Source: an uncultured Lachnospiraceae bacterium
GTDB lineage: Bacteria; Bacillota; Clostridia; Lachnospirales; Lachnospiraceae
NCBI GenBank assembly: GCA_949840465.1
Contig: CATKXE010000001.1
Coordinates: 1-64,000 of the forward strand
Direction: 5' to 3'
Length of the DNA stretch: 64,000 bases
Shown here piece by piece: positions 23,855-29,460 of the stretch (position 1 is its first letter; each line of letters starts with the position of its first letter). Made by a program: the position numbers and the translations under genes. Under the pieces are notes generated by a model. It made no database searches and was not told the origin of the DNA. It was given only the letters and a program-made list of their open reading frames with translations.

Positions 23855-26800
23855 TCATCTCTCCTTCCTTCTCACAATCTGCCGCAGGATCTCCGGGTCT
23901 TTGATCTTCCCATCCTCTGCCAGCATCGCAACCTTTGACAGGATTTCCGCCGTCTTCGGATCCTCGTCCAAAAATGGAAGATACACCTTTCCTCTTTTTG
24001 CGCTGTGTACGGCGACAATATGGATCGTCCCGCCGCCGGACTGATGTATGACGCCGCTTCCTAAATGCACGCTGTAATGGTTCATCCCGCCTTTGATATC
24101 CGCGAAATGCTCCTGCACCGACACATTAGAAAGTTTCATCAGCCGGCACGTATACTCCACGATCGTCTTTCTCAGCTCCATGGTGGAGAAGGACGTCACC
24201 GGATCCACCCCGCCCACATAGGCAGTGCTTACCGCCAGATCCACGTCCCGCATCGTCTCGGAGAAGGTAACCGGGTCTATATCCCTGATCCGAACTTTTT
24301 TTCCATCCTTTCGGGAGCAGAAGGACACATACTCAATGGACGGTGCCTCAATATCGCCGGGCGAGAACCAGTCTGCCTCCGCATACAAATTCACGATCAA
24401 ATTGTCTTTATAATATACTTTTTCCAGACCGCTTTCATAGCCCGCATTCCACTTTCTGCCCCTTAATGCAGCGGCCGCCTTCTTAGCCTGAATCTGATAC
24501 CCCGAATATCTTCTGGATTCAGACATATCCAGTTCATCCTCTAATTTAAGATACAGCTCTCTAAAGACCTGCTTAAAGGGCTGTACAATTCCTGCCTCAT
24601 AAATCTGCTCCTGAAAAACCTGCCACACCTGATGCTCATACAAATCATAAACGTGGGCGATACGCACCGTATTCGCCTTTCCCTCCGGCTCCTGTTCCCC
24701 AAAGTTTCCGTCCCTGTAAAACCCAATCTCCTCTTTGCTTACCAGCACCAGCTTATCCAACATAGGGGATACGATCGGATTACGCATCATGATTCCCAGT
24801 TCTTCCCGGGAAAATTCCGTCCGCTCCTCCATTGCCTGCTCCAGCATCTTTCTGGAACGCTTATACTGCTCGCTCCACCGGTTGTGGATCTCTTTTAAAT
24901 GCAGAACCCTCTCATCCTTTTTCAATACAGCGGGAATGGTTTTCTGTTTCTTTTTGTTTTTCCGAATGCAGATCTCATTCCTTCCCTGCGCGTCAATCTC
25001 AATCCATGCCTCTACGCAATCTTTTTCACCCTCCCTGCCCATTAAAATCTGAGGAGACAGCACGTCCTCATTCTGCCGCACTTCCTCGCTCTCCATCATC
25101 CAGGACAGACGGGCCACGGTCTCAAACCGGGAATTTCGCGCCAGATTCATCAGCGCCATTTCCGCCGCGCGCTTCTCACTGGCCTGACGTTGGGAGCCGA
25201 ACTTTTTTGATTCCTTCAAAAACTGTTGGACAAATAAATACCGCTCCAAAAGGTCTGCATCCCCTTCCAGAGGGCAGATGCAGTATGCATTCAGGGCGTC
25301 CTTGTTCCGCTTTTCCACAACTTCTTTTTTCCAGGCTTCCCTGCCCTTCTTCCCCAGAGAGGCATCCGCATACTTCCTTGCCCTTGTGTGGAATGAATTT
25401 TCGCACAGGAATCTGGATGCCTTATAAAGCATCTGGAAACGCTTTTCACCCAGAGACTCATACACGCTCCTGCACCATTCCATGTCAAATGCACCGTCGT
25501 ACAAATCCTCCGGTTCGAGCTGCGTATATTTTGCGATCTCCGCCTTTTTCTGTTTCAGGTCATACTGTTTCATATGGGCGGTAAAATAATAGCAGGCTTC
25601 CTTAAACCCATCCCATTTTAGCACCTCTTTGACTGCCTCAATCCACTGTGGAGCCAGCATAGCCACCTCCACCAGCCGCTCTTCCTTAACGTGCGCTGCG
25701 GCAAGCGTTTCTGCATCATTGCCGGACGTAGGGTAGCAATGCCGGATCACATTGGAAAACACGATATTCCGGTCATCCCCGGATGCCTGCCTGCGGATGT
25801 CCTCCCCTTCCAGCACCTGCAGAGCCAAAATCAGATATTTCACGCCCCGGATAACCACAAGCCCCTCCACATAATCTGTAACCGCTGTTTTTTCGTTCAG
25901 GCGTTGACATTCCATAGCAAGCAATGTATCTGTAATCGTATCCAAAGCATTCCGAAGGCATTCAATCACCCCTGTACCGCAATGATACCGGGTAGGGCGG
26001 TAGTCCTCAATGTCAAGATGCGGCTTTCCCAAAAATCCCCTGCCTTCAAAATAAGCATCCCGGAAAGCTTCGCTGAGCTGCCCCCTGTTCCTTCTGTAAT
26101 AATACCCGCGGTCTTCCTCCATGTGGTTGTCCATGATCCCTTCATAGAGCGCCTCCACAGGCAGCATACCAAGGAGTACCGCCCTGGCAAGGAGCAGGGG
26201 CGCAATCGTGGGCAGGCTTAACGCCCCGGAATCATTGCCCAGATTGTATTTGTTATACACTTCTAAAATGAGCGGAAAATATTTCCGAAAATGCCCGTCC
26301 TCACACTGCAATAAATGCAGCTGCTCCCGCAAAAACAAAATGCTCCGGCTGGAGGTCACTGCATGGGTCTCCTCCACGCCGTCATACCGCTTTTTCTTAT
26401 AGTTCAGATATTTACCATACCGTGTAAGCATCTGTAAAATCCTGGCTGAATGCCCGGCAAAATCCATATTTTCCAGGATCTCCGCATAGTAATGCCGCAA
26501 AATGCTCTCGAAATGGCCGGCATACGGAATGCTATTCCATTCCTCCCGCTCCAGTGTAAACATCTCTGATTTTGCATCCGTCACTTTTTCCAGATAAACC
26601 GAATCATAGGTAGTCTCCAACAGAAACCGGAGTTCAAAAACAGTTTCCGGGGACAGAGCGTCCTTCTCAAAATACTGTTTCCACGTATCCGCAAGCGGCA
26701 GGGCTGCAAGACCCTTTTCCCCATGGTTCACAGGGTAAAAGCTTCTGTCCCTGACCTGCCTGTATTCATATCCCGTATAGTACTCCTCATCCTCATGGCT

Positions 26801-28798
26801 GGCGATACGGGCGCCCCAGCGCCGGATATAATCCAGCACCTGCTTTTTATTCCAGGGAAACACGGACTTTAAATCCACATGCTTTTCTTTTTTGAGCAGT
26901 CCCTTTTCCGTAACCTGCAGAAATTGCGGGGATTCCATTTCATAAACAGATTTTCGTCTATACAGGCCAAACCCCTCTTCCTTCCCTTTCATGTCCAAGG
27001 GAACCAGAATGTCCGGCATCTTACCCTCTTCTCCCATGGTTTGGAACGGCGGCTCCTCTTTTTCGCATTCTTCGGCGCCTCCCTCTCCCACAAAGAATGT
27101 AGCTCTCTTTTTACGCAATTCCATGGCCGATTCCCGAATGGTCTTGATTGCAGACTCTTTCAGACGGTGATAGCTGGCTCTCACCACATCCCTGTCCTGA
27201 GATGCAAGCACATCCACGATATACGCCCGCGCTTTCGCCTTCTTTGTCTTCAGCCTGCCTTCGAGCTGCAGGATATCCTCCCCGGTAAGTGTGCTTTCCC
27301 GATACTCCTGGACGATCCATTTTCCAAGCGCATCATTGGAGGAAATGATCTCCTTTAGCATAAAACTTTTTCTCTTTGCTTCGGACGCCAACCGGAACAG
27401 TTTTCCCATAAAAAAATCCAGATCTTTCGTTCTCAGAGAAGATGCGACATACGGAAGGAATTTCTCCACCATCTCTGTGGACGGATATTTGTCAAGAAGA
27501 TAGAACAGGCAATAGCACAGGCTGTCTTTTGTAAGCGTCGTCTCAAACCATTCAAAGCCTTTTGAAGAATATACTTTCTTACTGCCCACGGACGGCAGGA
27601 AACCCCATATCTGTGCATAAAGCTTTTCCGTCTGTCCTTTCGTCAAATGCAGTTTTTCTATATCCTTTCCCATGCGGACACACTCGGAGTAGAACAACGC
27701 GAGAATCCACTCGTCGTCCCCGAATTTTTCCGGAAAGTCCAGATAGTTTCCCACATTAAAGCTGTTTGTGAGACGCAGATAGACCAATGCGCTCGCCACC
27801 ACATACCGGCGGCCGCTTTGAAGCAGCAGGCAGGCTTCTTTGATTGCCTCTTCTACATCAAACGCCCCTTTACAGTACAGCGCAATATAAATATCCAGCG
27901 GATTTTCTGATTTTTCAAAGGCTTCCCTGCGCATGTTCTCCTGCCCGGATTTCTCTAATCCCCGCAAATCCAATGTTTCGGCTTCGGGCAGATAACAGCG
28001 GATATGTTCAAAGATATATCGGACGTCCTTTTCTTTCACCTCCTGATATCCAATGCCGATCCAGGTCAGCACTGCCCGCTGGACAGAAGAAAATCGGAGC
28101 AGGTTTTCCCTTTCAATTACATCCAATGTCCTTCGGAAGAAATCCACAGTATTTTCATCCGCAGTTTCTACAATGCTCTGCCGCAGCCCTTCCTGCAGCC
28201 TTGCCGCCAGAAATACCTGTAACAGTATCTGCTGCAGTTCCTGATTGCCGCTTTGCTCCACGGCAATGATAACGCCTCTTGTCAGGACAGCCGTATTATT
28301 TTCACTTGTCAGGACGTCCCTGCAATATTGGACGGCCTCGGGATCCTCCGCCAATAATTCCGAGGCAACCACCGGAGAAAAGTCCGCCCCGTAAAACAAA
28401 TCCCGGTATTCCCCATACACCAAATCCTTCATGGACATTCCTGAGCCATAGAACCAGTAAAAGCAAGCGATTGCCCGAAAGATTTTTCCCTTATAACGTG
28501 AAAATTTTTTGCTTCTTACATCCATACGGACCAGCCCGTCATTACAGGTATATTCCTGAATATGGCGCAGATATCTGCAGAGCTTCTCATAATGTTCTCC
28601 CAGAAGGCCCTGAAATTGCTTCTGCCGCTCCAAAAAGATTCCCACATCCTCCGGAAGTTCCGCCTCATAATTTGAAACAAATAGATAGTCGTGTTCCTCT
28701 ATATATTTCATATATTGTTTTTCCAAATCCGTACATTTTGAAACATTGCGTGTTTTGTTATATTCCCTCAGACGGGAAATCAGCTCTTTTTGATTCAT
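23855..28798 (-). CDS. Giant DUF5724/DUF4132 domain protein (1647 residues)
   Basis: Very large cytoplasmic protein without signal peptide or membrane helix. I recognise it as a DUF5724/DUF4132-type protein (related to the MolR/YehI group); the biochemical role is not known. Residues 1 to about 650 are helical and repeat-like; a DUF4132-like part follows the stretch LDYIRRWGARIASHEDEEYY (about 660-860); the C-terminal 160 residues contain the most conserved-looking block, DPVTFSETMRDVDLAVSTAYVGG to HLGSGVIHQSGGG. No ATPase or nuclease motif is visible. Start ATG has GGAGG only one base away, with AAAGGA further upstream. It is preceded on the same strand, 123 bases away, by a small beta-grasp protein, and these two probably form an operon. 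Confidence 0.8.
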   Translation of the reverse strand: MNQKELISRLREYNKTRNVSKCTDLEKQYMKYIEEHDYLFVSNYEAELPEDVGIFLERQKQFQGLLGEHYEKLCRYLRHIQEYTCNDGLVRMDVRSKKFSRYKGKIFRAIACFYWFYGSGMSMKDLVYGEYRDLFYGADFSPVVASELLAEDPEAVQYCRDVLTSENNTAVLTRGVIIAVEQSGNQELQQILLQVFLAARLQEGLRQSIVETADENTVDFFRRTLDVIERENLLRFSSVQRAVLTWIGIGYQEVKEKDVRYIFEHIRCYLPEAETLDLRGLEKSGQENMRREAFEKSENPLDIYIALYCKGAFDVEEAIKEACLLLQSGRRYVVASALVYLRLTNSFNVGNYLDFPEKFGDDEWILALFYSECVRMGKDIEKLHLTKGQTEKLYAQIWGFLPSVGSKKVYSSKGFEWFETTLTKDSLCYCLFYLLDKYPSTEMVEKFLPYVASSLRTKDLDFFMGKLFRLASEAKRKSFMLKEIISSNDALGKWIVQEYRESTLTGEDILQLEGRLKTKKAKARAYIVDVLASQDRDVVRASYHRLKESAIKTIRESAMELRKKRATFFVGEGGAEECEKEEPPFQTMGEEGKMPDILVPLDMKGKEEGFGLYRRKSVYEMESPQFLQVTEKGLLKKEKHVDLKSVFPWNKKQVLDYIRRWGARIASHEDEEYYTGYEYRQVRDRSFYPVNHGEKGLAALPLADTWKQYFEKDALSPETVFELRFLLETTYDSVYLEKVTDAKSEMFTLEREEWNSIPYAGHFESILRHYYAEILENMDFAGHSARILQMLTRYGKYLNYKKKRYDGVEETHAVTSSRSILFLREQLHLLQCEDGHFRKYFPLILEVYNKYNLGNDSGALSLPTIAPLLLARAVLLGMLPVEALYEGIMDNHMEEDRGYYYRRNRGQLSEAFRDAYFEGRGFLGKPHLDIEDYRPTRYHCGTGVIECLRNALDTITDTLLAMECQRLNEKTAVTDYVEGLVVIRGVKYLILALQVLEGEDIRRQASGDDRNIVFSNVIRHCYPTSGNDAETLAAAHVKEERLVEVAMLAPQWIEAVKEVLKWDGFKEACYYFTAHMKQYDLKQKKAEIAKYTQLEPEDLYDGAFDMEWCRSVYESLGEKRFQMLYKASRFLCENSFHTRARKYADASLGKKGREAWKKEVVEKRNKDALNAYCICPLEGDADLLERYLFVQQFLKESKKFGSQRQASEKRAAEMALMNLARNSRFETVARLSWMMESEEVRQNEDVLSPQILMGREGEKDCVEAWIEIDAQGRNEICIRKNKKKQKTIPAVLKKDERVLHLKEIHNRWSEQYKRSRKMLEQAMEERTEFSREELGIMMRNPIVSPMLDKLVLVSKEEIGFYRDGNFGEQEPEGKANTVRIAHVYDLYEHQVWQVFQEQIYEAGIVQPFKQVFRELYLKLEDELDMSESRRYSGYQIQAKKAAAALRGRKWNAGYESGLEKVYYKDNLIVNLYAEADWFSPGDIEAPSIEYVSFCSRKDGKKVRIRDIDPVTFSETMRDVDLAVSTAYVGGVDPVTSFSTMELRKTIVEYTCRLMKLSNVSVQEHFADIKGGMNHYSVHLGSGVIHQSGGGTIHIVAVHSAKRGKVYLPFLDEDPKTAEILSKVAMLAEDGKIKDPEILRQIVRRKER

Positions 28799-28921
28799 AC
28801 CTCCGCGTATTCCTTTCTGCTGTCTTCTCTATCTTTTTTCATCCGTACAAGCTATGGTTCCGGCATAACAGCTCTTCAGGCATTGCAGGCGGCAGTGCAT
28901 TGGATTTCATTCCCGGCGCCC

Positions 28922-29356
28922 TTACCACATCCGCCCGGCCAGCATGACAAGGCGGATCAGCGCCACTTCATCCCCGTCCTTGATATCCAGCTTTTCTTCC
29001 AGCGCCAGGCATTCCTTTCCATTGAGGTACACACGGAACAATCCGTCTTTAAAATCCTGCAGCATCACCCGGATCGCCTGCTCCAAATCTCCCATATTTT
29101 CCTGATAGGATTCTGAAAACCGGACTCTGCCCAGAGCTGCCTGCTGCCCGATTTCCTCTTTGGAAAGTAAATCCCTCCCGGAATTGAAACCGCCATCCTG
29201 CTGTCCGTCTGCCCTTCCCTGGCTTCGCTTACGGAACTCGGAAACCGTCATTTCCGCCAAAAGTTCTTCCAACGTAGAAACGGCAGGGATCTCTAATGAC
29301 TCCCTGCCTAATTCCCGCAGACTGGAAGCCTTTTTTCGAATTACATTCAGCCTCAT
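28922..29356 (-). CDS. Ubiquitin-like (ThiS/MoaD-type beta-grasp) small protein
   Basis: 144 residues. The N-terminus MRLNVIRKK with following EIPAVSTLEELLAEM looks like the first strands and helix of a ThiS/MoaD fold, and the C-terminus FRVYLNGKECLALEEKLDIKDGDEVALIRLV reproduces the last strands including the KDGDEVAL turn. Between them is a polar insert of about 50 residues. The chain ends LAGRMW instead of the diglycine needed for adenylation and sulfur transfer, so it is unlikely to be a normal sulfur carrier unless processed. The ATG five codons into the track ORF is preferred (GGAGG, 8-base spacing). Family assignment is by eye and tentative. Likely co-transcribed with the 1647-residue protein downstream. 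Confidence 0.65.
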   Translation of the reverse strand: MRLNVIRKKASSLRELGRESLEIPAVSTLEELLAEMTVSEFRKRSQGRADGQQDGGFNSGRDLLSKEEIGQQAALGRVRFSESYQENMGDLEQAIRVMLQDFKDGLFRVYLNGKECLALEEKLDIKDGDEVALIRLVMLAGRMW

Positions 29357-29460
29357 CCGCTTATCCTCCATCCTTCATTCTATAATTTTTAACTTTTTCT
29401 CCGCTTGCCGATTTTTTAAAGTTATGTGTCATAACCGCATCTTTGACTCCCATAAAATAC

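Follow-up and report, generated by a model that had tools for sequence, protein, structure and literature searches.

The two adjacent genes described here, from a 64,000-nucleotide stretch of the genome of an uncultured Lachnospiraceae bacterium (contig CATKXE010000001.1; hereafter, the window), belong to a pair of gene families that is spread over at least seven bacterial phyla, and the pairing is near-universal and far beyond chance. One gene encodes a small protein predicted to adopt the beta-grasp fold of ubiquitin and MoaD, and the other a giant protein carrying the domains DUF5724, DUF4132, and DUF7737. Taking the observations together, the explanation that we consider best, and rather probable without being secure, is that the two proteins form an obligate complex, that the small protein descends from an E1-activated ancestor ending in Gly-Gly, that in the lineage of the window its tail docks non-covalently, and that the complex has a likely role in the stress response.

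Both genes, and all the features located within them below, are on the minus strand. The small gene (28922..29356) starts with the ATG at 29356 and encodes 144 amino acids (an alternative in-frame ATG at 29371 would give 149), and the large gene (23855..28798) encodes 1647 amino acids. The two open reading frames, their common strand, and the intergenic gap of 123 bases (28799..28921) are as an initial annotation of the sequence had reported. The gap is unusually long compared with the spacing across other loci, which is typically -7 to +37 bases, and a search for a minus-strand terminator-like site between the two genes found none. In the large protein, three Pfam matches exceed their cut-offs: DUF5724 (E 3e-217; residues 23-1235; 25094..28732), a region that is variable among homologues; DUF4132 (E 7e-35; residues 1283-1450; 24449..24952); and DUF7737 (E 1e-32; residues 1541-1641; 23876..24178), which was found in all the partnered large proteins scanned. 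None of the neighbouring genes in the window is related to the pair; their products are TopA, DprA, a ComM-like Mg-chelatase, a sigma factor, a Big_2 surface protein, and a MalK-type sugar ABC ATPase.

In a survey of 80 loci from named genomes, anchored on the large protein alone, the small gene lies directly upstream of the large gene in 79, and in the remaining locus the contig starts at the large gene. These loci span the Bacillota, Bacteroidota, Acidobacteriota, Planctomycetota, Myxococcota, and one metagenome-assembled genome (MAG) labelled Pseudomonadota, and the small gene was also found in the Deinococcota and on an alphaproteobacterial plasmid. Among 250 genomes of the family, the small protein is present in 15 and DUF5724 in 15, and these are the identical 15 genomes (Fisher p 2e-24); among 300 genomes of the phylum, each is present in the identical seven (p 2e-14), with one further, eighth DUF5724 match falling under the cut-off. 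Because related genomes are not independent, these p-values are only nominal. Across 90 loci, no further gene accompanies the pair consistently, and the recurrences seen there are common ABC ATPases, regulators, and synteny between close relatives. The initial annotation had proposed that the small protein may be a dedicated partner in a minimal two-gene system, and this proposal is strongly supported by the linkage and co-occurrence; it had also named two outcomes that would refute it, the lack of a beta-grasp fold in a predicted structure and the absence of the pairing from other genomes with the large gene, and neither was encountered.

It could still be argued that the small gene is no more than a neighbour that has been conserved, or a translational leader, and that the two proteins are not partners at all, since contact data are lacking and the gap in the window is 123 bases long. 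We give this idea almost no credence, because the co-occurrence is complete even in a genome that has the pair on separate contigs, and the sequence of the small protein is itself conserved, with invariant residues. The separated pair is in genome G019 (C1:106215-106454 and C17:113008-116757), which retains both genes; the large gene appears to be the one that moved. Other arrangements were also observed. On one contig (G009, C113; L047 258-10752), a single small gene is flanked by two large paralogues. At five loci (L063 on G252:C9, L062 on G397:C20, L121, L122, and L130), the large gene is in two frames and the small gene is intact; a pseudogene, an assembly error, and a real split are all possible. 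A MAG labelled Thalassovita (G547), possibly mislabelled or mixed, contains DUF7737 genes of both forms, three short and one long (the short form is described below).

The large protein had initially been likened to DUF4132 proteins of the MolR/YehI type, which are often associated with MoxR ATPases and VWA proteins. The likeness is real for the DUF4132 domain itself, and not wholly accurate for the type. Among 24 genomes of the family with DUF4132, the small gene is present in all 15 that have DUF5724 and in none of the nine that have DUF4132 only, and the sequences of eight YehI-like DUF4132-only proteins that we inspected end before the DUF7737 region. In other words, DUF5724 and a small partner are absent from the nine genomes with YehI-like proteins that were checked, as is the DUF7737 region from the eight proteins inspected. 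As the initial annotation had noted, there is no MoxR ATPase or VWA gene near the pair in the window.

The beta-grasp fold that had been suspected in the small protein is borne out by structure prediction. Its AlphaFold2 model (pLDDT 74.7) has the topology b-b-a-(helical insert)-b-b-b, in which the helical insert, at approximately residues 50-100, is poorly modelled, with pLDDT below 50 in two stretches. In a Foldseek search of the PDB, the best matches of this model are E. coli MoaD, human MOCS2A, and ubiquitin, the best being MoaD (E 0.014, probability 1.00). With E 0.014 at best for these matches, the fold is well supported yet unproven. At the sequence level, the protein scores 19.7 bits against ThiS/MoaD (PF02597), under the curated cut-off of 22.5, only one of 15 homologues matches PF02597 at any level, and a profile of the small-protein family found no relative with a solved structure. 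In the alignment of the 15 homologues from the family, G76, A94, D104, G105, L139, G141, and W144 are invariant. The small protein resembles MoaD in MoaD-MoaE, and MoaD/ThiS with MoeB/ThiF, in that it is a beta-grasp protein dedicated to a larger partner; it differs from them in its 144 residues, large helical insert, and AG-RMW end, and in that its partner is a DUF5724-DUF4132-DUF7737 protein rather than MoaE or ThiG.

In the window, the small protein ends in LVMLAGRMW, without a C-terminal Gly-Gly, and the last six residues, L-A-G-R-M-W (28925..28942), align where relatives end in Gly-Gly. Across 79 loci the end is mostly [AST]G-[RSG]-[LMI]-W: the position of the second Gly is taken by R, S, or G, and the terminus is aromatic. 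A second G directly after the first occurs in 10 of the 79 (AGG-x-W and similar). The tail after the Gly varies from one to seven residues, and the Gly itself is kept in all aligned members. The small proteins of four Deinococcus loci end in ...LLRLTALAGG, with nothing beyond. There is also a short-form subfamily, whose large proteins of about 830-870 amino acids have DUF4132 and DUF7737 and lack DUF5724; at eight of its loci, they are paired with a related small protein ending in ...LTPLVGG or close variants, and at five others (L161, L170, L171, L198, and L199) no ubiquitin-like gene was detectable.

A tree of 72 large-protein C-termini places the short forms first, followed by Deinococcus as the sister to all tailed long forms (99/86), and it groups the window, whose branch is long, in one clade with members from Bacteroides, Parabacteroides, and the Lachnospiraceae. 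If the root lies between the short and long forms, the Gly-Gly end is ancestral, and the tail is derived and arose once. This rooting is an assumption, and two of the short-form sequences are on long branches.

Some of the Gly-Gly relatives retain what may be the activating enzyme. At two loci, L182 (5827-6534) and L184 (1378-2082), a ThiF-type E1 is the third gene of the operon, directly after the Gly-Gly pair. Both E1s match PF00899 (E 5e-63 and 3e-68, respectively), are only 35% identical to each other, and keep the GxGGxG, NLxRQ, and DC(T/S)DN motifs of the ATP site and one aligned Cys, which is presumed, by analogy with MoeB/ThiF, to be the catalytic one. Each is the sole MoeB/ThiF-type E1 in its genome (G664 and G677, for which completeness was not given), and neither ThiS/MoaD nor MoaE was detected in either genome, so an ordinary molybdopterin operon can be rejected at these loci. 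In three other short-form genomes, there is no E1 beside the pair, and MoaD/ThiS, MoaE, and ThiF-family proteins are found elsewhere. A search near the long-form loci found no E1, and the window's own genome (assembly 93% complete) has no MoeB/ThiF-type E1, ThiS/MoaD, or MoaE, its only ThiF protein being TcdA-like. It should be mentioned that the evidence from E1 adjacency comes from two loci only. Bacterial operons that combine a ubiquitin-like protein with E1, E2, and JAB genes have been described (PMC1779556), and the two E1-containing relatives resemble these in having a ubiquitin-like protein and an E1 in one operon; they differ in that no E2 or JAB gene was recognised beside the pair.

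The Gly-Gly end and the ThiF-type E1 of some relatives are a further likeness to MoaD/ThiS, and they bear on the question of whether the small protein is a sulfur carrier, that is, a MoaD/ThiS-like thiocarboxylate donor for which the large protein would be the sulfur acceptor or synthase in making a modified metabolite or RNA. MoaD is also the closest fold, a likeness that PMC9650054 draws as well. On the other hand, the tailed forms would need processing before a C-terminal thiocarboxylate on the Gly is possible, there is no conserved third gene whatsoever, and the lack of detectable MoaE in the genomes with the E1 operons speaks against ordinary molybdopterin synthesis. We therefore regard a sulfur carrier as quite improbable.

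The large protein offers fewer clues. A model of its last 620 residues reaches pLDDT 86 and has no fold match in the PDB or among viral predictions, and a profile of the large-protein family found no solved relative; since the model matches no known fold, no enzymatic activity was assigned. The residues common to the long and short forms include H1382, K1409, Q1410, R1413, E1414, E1422, R1448, S1513, E1514, R1517, D1518, D1520, R1543, H1578, D1613, and K1622. Among 64 aligned C-terminal halves there is no conserved Cys position, which disfavours a thioester (E2/E3-like) role. From these conserved positions, the C-terminal half looks like a polar functional site that would work without a thioester, and no activity can be named for it; any activity of the large protein is an inference.

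These results also bear on the suggestion of the initial annotation that the small protein might be a tag after trimming, which is neither shown nor excluded. As a pro-modifier, it would be cut by a peptidase that removes R-M-W and exposes LAG (or LAGG), and would then be activated and attached to targets, with the giant protein as a ligase or scaffold. The Gly that precedes the tail in every aligned member, the variable length of that tail, the 10 sequences with a second G in place, the Gly-Gly ends of the Deinococcus and short-form relatives, and the E1 genes in two operons are all in keeping with such a scheme. The invariant Gly with its short tail behind it also recalls UFM1 and Atg8, which are single-Gly, tail-processed modifiers. 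However, the tail does not vary freely and is conserved ([RSG]-[LMI]-W in most); the long-form loci have no conserved E1, E2, or peptidase gene nearby; the window genome has only the TcdA-like E1 relative; the large protein lacks a conserved Cys in its C-terminal half; and, unlike the case of UFM1 and Atg8, no processing or conjugation enzymes were found for this family and there is no evidence of cleavage. We consider a pro-modifier unlikely, and keep it open because the Gly persists in front of a tail whose length varies. For the lineage of the window we prefer non-covalent action of the small protein, because the tail is conserved and no MoeB/ThiF-type E1 is present in the window genome, as far as an assembly that is 93% complete can tell.

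Members of the two families have been partly characterised in Deinococcus radiodurans, in which DRA0165 (DR_A0165) and DRA0166 belong to the small and large families (profile E 1e-29 and about 1e-290, respectively), in the same gene order as in the window; the small protein differs from that of the window in ending in Gly-Gly. A DdrO site is listed for DRA0165, and the DRA0166 protein rises after mitomycin C only when IrrE is present (PMC8533742). We found this site, TTATGCTATTTACATAA, about 80 bases upstream of DRA0165, at the place stated in that paper, and three of the four Deinococcus loci have it exactly; one DRA0165-DRA0166 locus carrying the exact upstream site is L155 5117-10404 (NZ_OV024759.1). 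According to PMC9650054, levels of DRA0165 (SEP068184) increase after irradiation and H2O2, the deletion mutant is more resistant to H2O2, and the protein binds Trx1, with many other proteins in the pull-down, among which DRA0166 is not named in the passages considered here. The paper likens DRA0165 to MoaD and SAMP1, calls it Deinococcus-specific and without a DdrO site, and does not link it to DRA0166 as a partner. The absence of a DdrO site is rejected by the presence of TTATGCTATTTACATAA upstream and its listing in PMC8533742, and the restriction to Deinococcus conflicts with the distribution of the family.

Outside Deinococcus, a stress role is inferred. In the Bacillota, the LexA-box core, an exact GAAC-N4-GTTC, occurs no more than 300 bases upstream of the small gene at 8 of 79 loci (L067, L068, L106, L083, L084, L096, L113, and L138), compared with about 0.4 expected from its density, or about 25 times the expected density. 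A LexA-type box was also sought upstream of the window's own genes and is absent. Because several of the eight loci come from closely related genomes and the window lacks such a box, the signal is suggestive only. The DUF7737 domain, the Gly-Gly and E1 relatives, and the DNA-damage link in Deinococcus had all been missed by the initial annotation.

MoxR-VWA-DUF4132 neighbourhoods provide an analogy for an anti-phage defence module. By that analogy, the pair could itself serve in defence, and its patchy distribution (6% of family genomes and 2% of phylum genomes) and the damage-inducible version in Deinococcus would fit. We hold this to be very improbable, given that the PADLOC models give no match except a weak helical-repeat one (E 0.007) in one homologue, that related Paenibacillus share the chromosomal neighbourhoods of the pair, and that none of 50,697 phage records gave a match and the pair is on few plasmids.

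How, then, might an obligate complex of this kind have arisen and work? On our preferred reading, the small protein is a MoaD-type ubiquitin-like subunit dedicated to the giant DUF5724-DUF4132-DUF7737 protein, their physical contact being inferred. The ancestor would have been a ubiquitin-like protein with a Gly-Gly end, presumably activated by an E1 of the ThiF/MoeB type and working alongside a DUF4132-DUF7737 protein. In the lineage of the window, the second Gly would have been replaced by the short conserved tail AG-[RSG]-[LMI]-W, with no E1 gene accompanying the pair, and the small protein probably acts non-covalently, its tail docking into the conserved DUF4132-DUF7737 half. By analogy with the MoaD tail, which enters MoaE, such docking would assemble the giant protein or switch it on. 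In the cell, the pair would most likely serve in a response to DNA damage or oxidative stress. We also put forward, as a tentative proposal that may well prove wrong, that the E1-activated Gly-Gly beta-grasp protein was attached to, or passed on by, a DUF4132-DUF7737 protein whose fold is new and whose chemistry involves no thioester, and that the derived branch turned it into a permanent, stress-regulated subunit sealed by its tail.

A DUF4132-DUF7737 partner of a ubiquitin-like protein was not found described in the literature that we searched. DUF4132-DUF7737 proteins, whose function is unsolved, thereby gain a dedicated partner, and hence a handle, and DRA0165, published as Deinococcus-specific, is placed in a family of at least seven phyla. 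Although neither function nor contact has been shown, this uncharacterised pair has the appearance of a ubiquitin-like system that is old and can be put to the test. Its members form a series, from a free Gly-Gly with an operon E1, through a Gly-Gly with no E1 nearby, to a sealed tail, and this series allows ordinary laboratory bacteria to be used in studying how ubiquitin-like activation is lost or masked.
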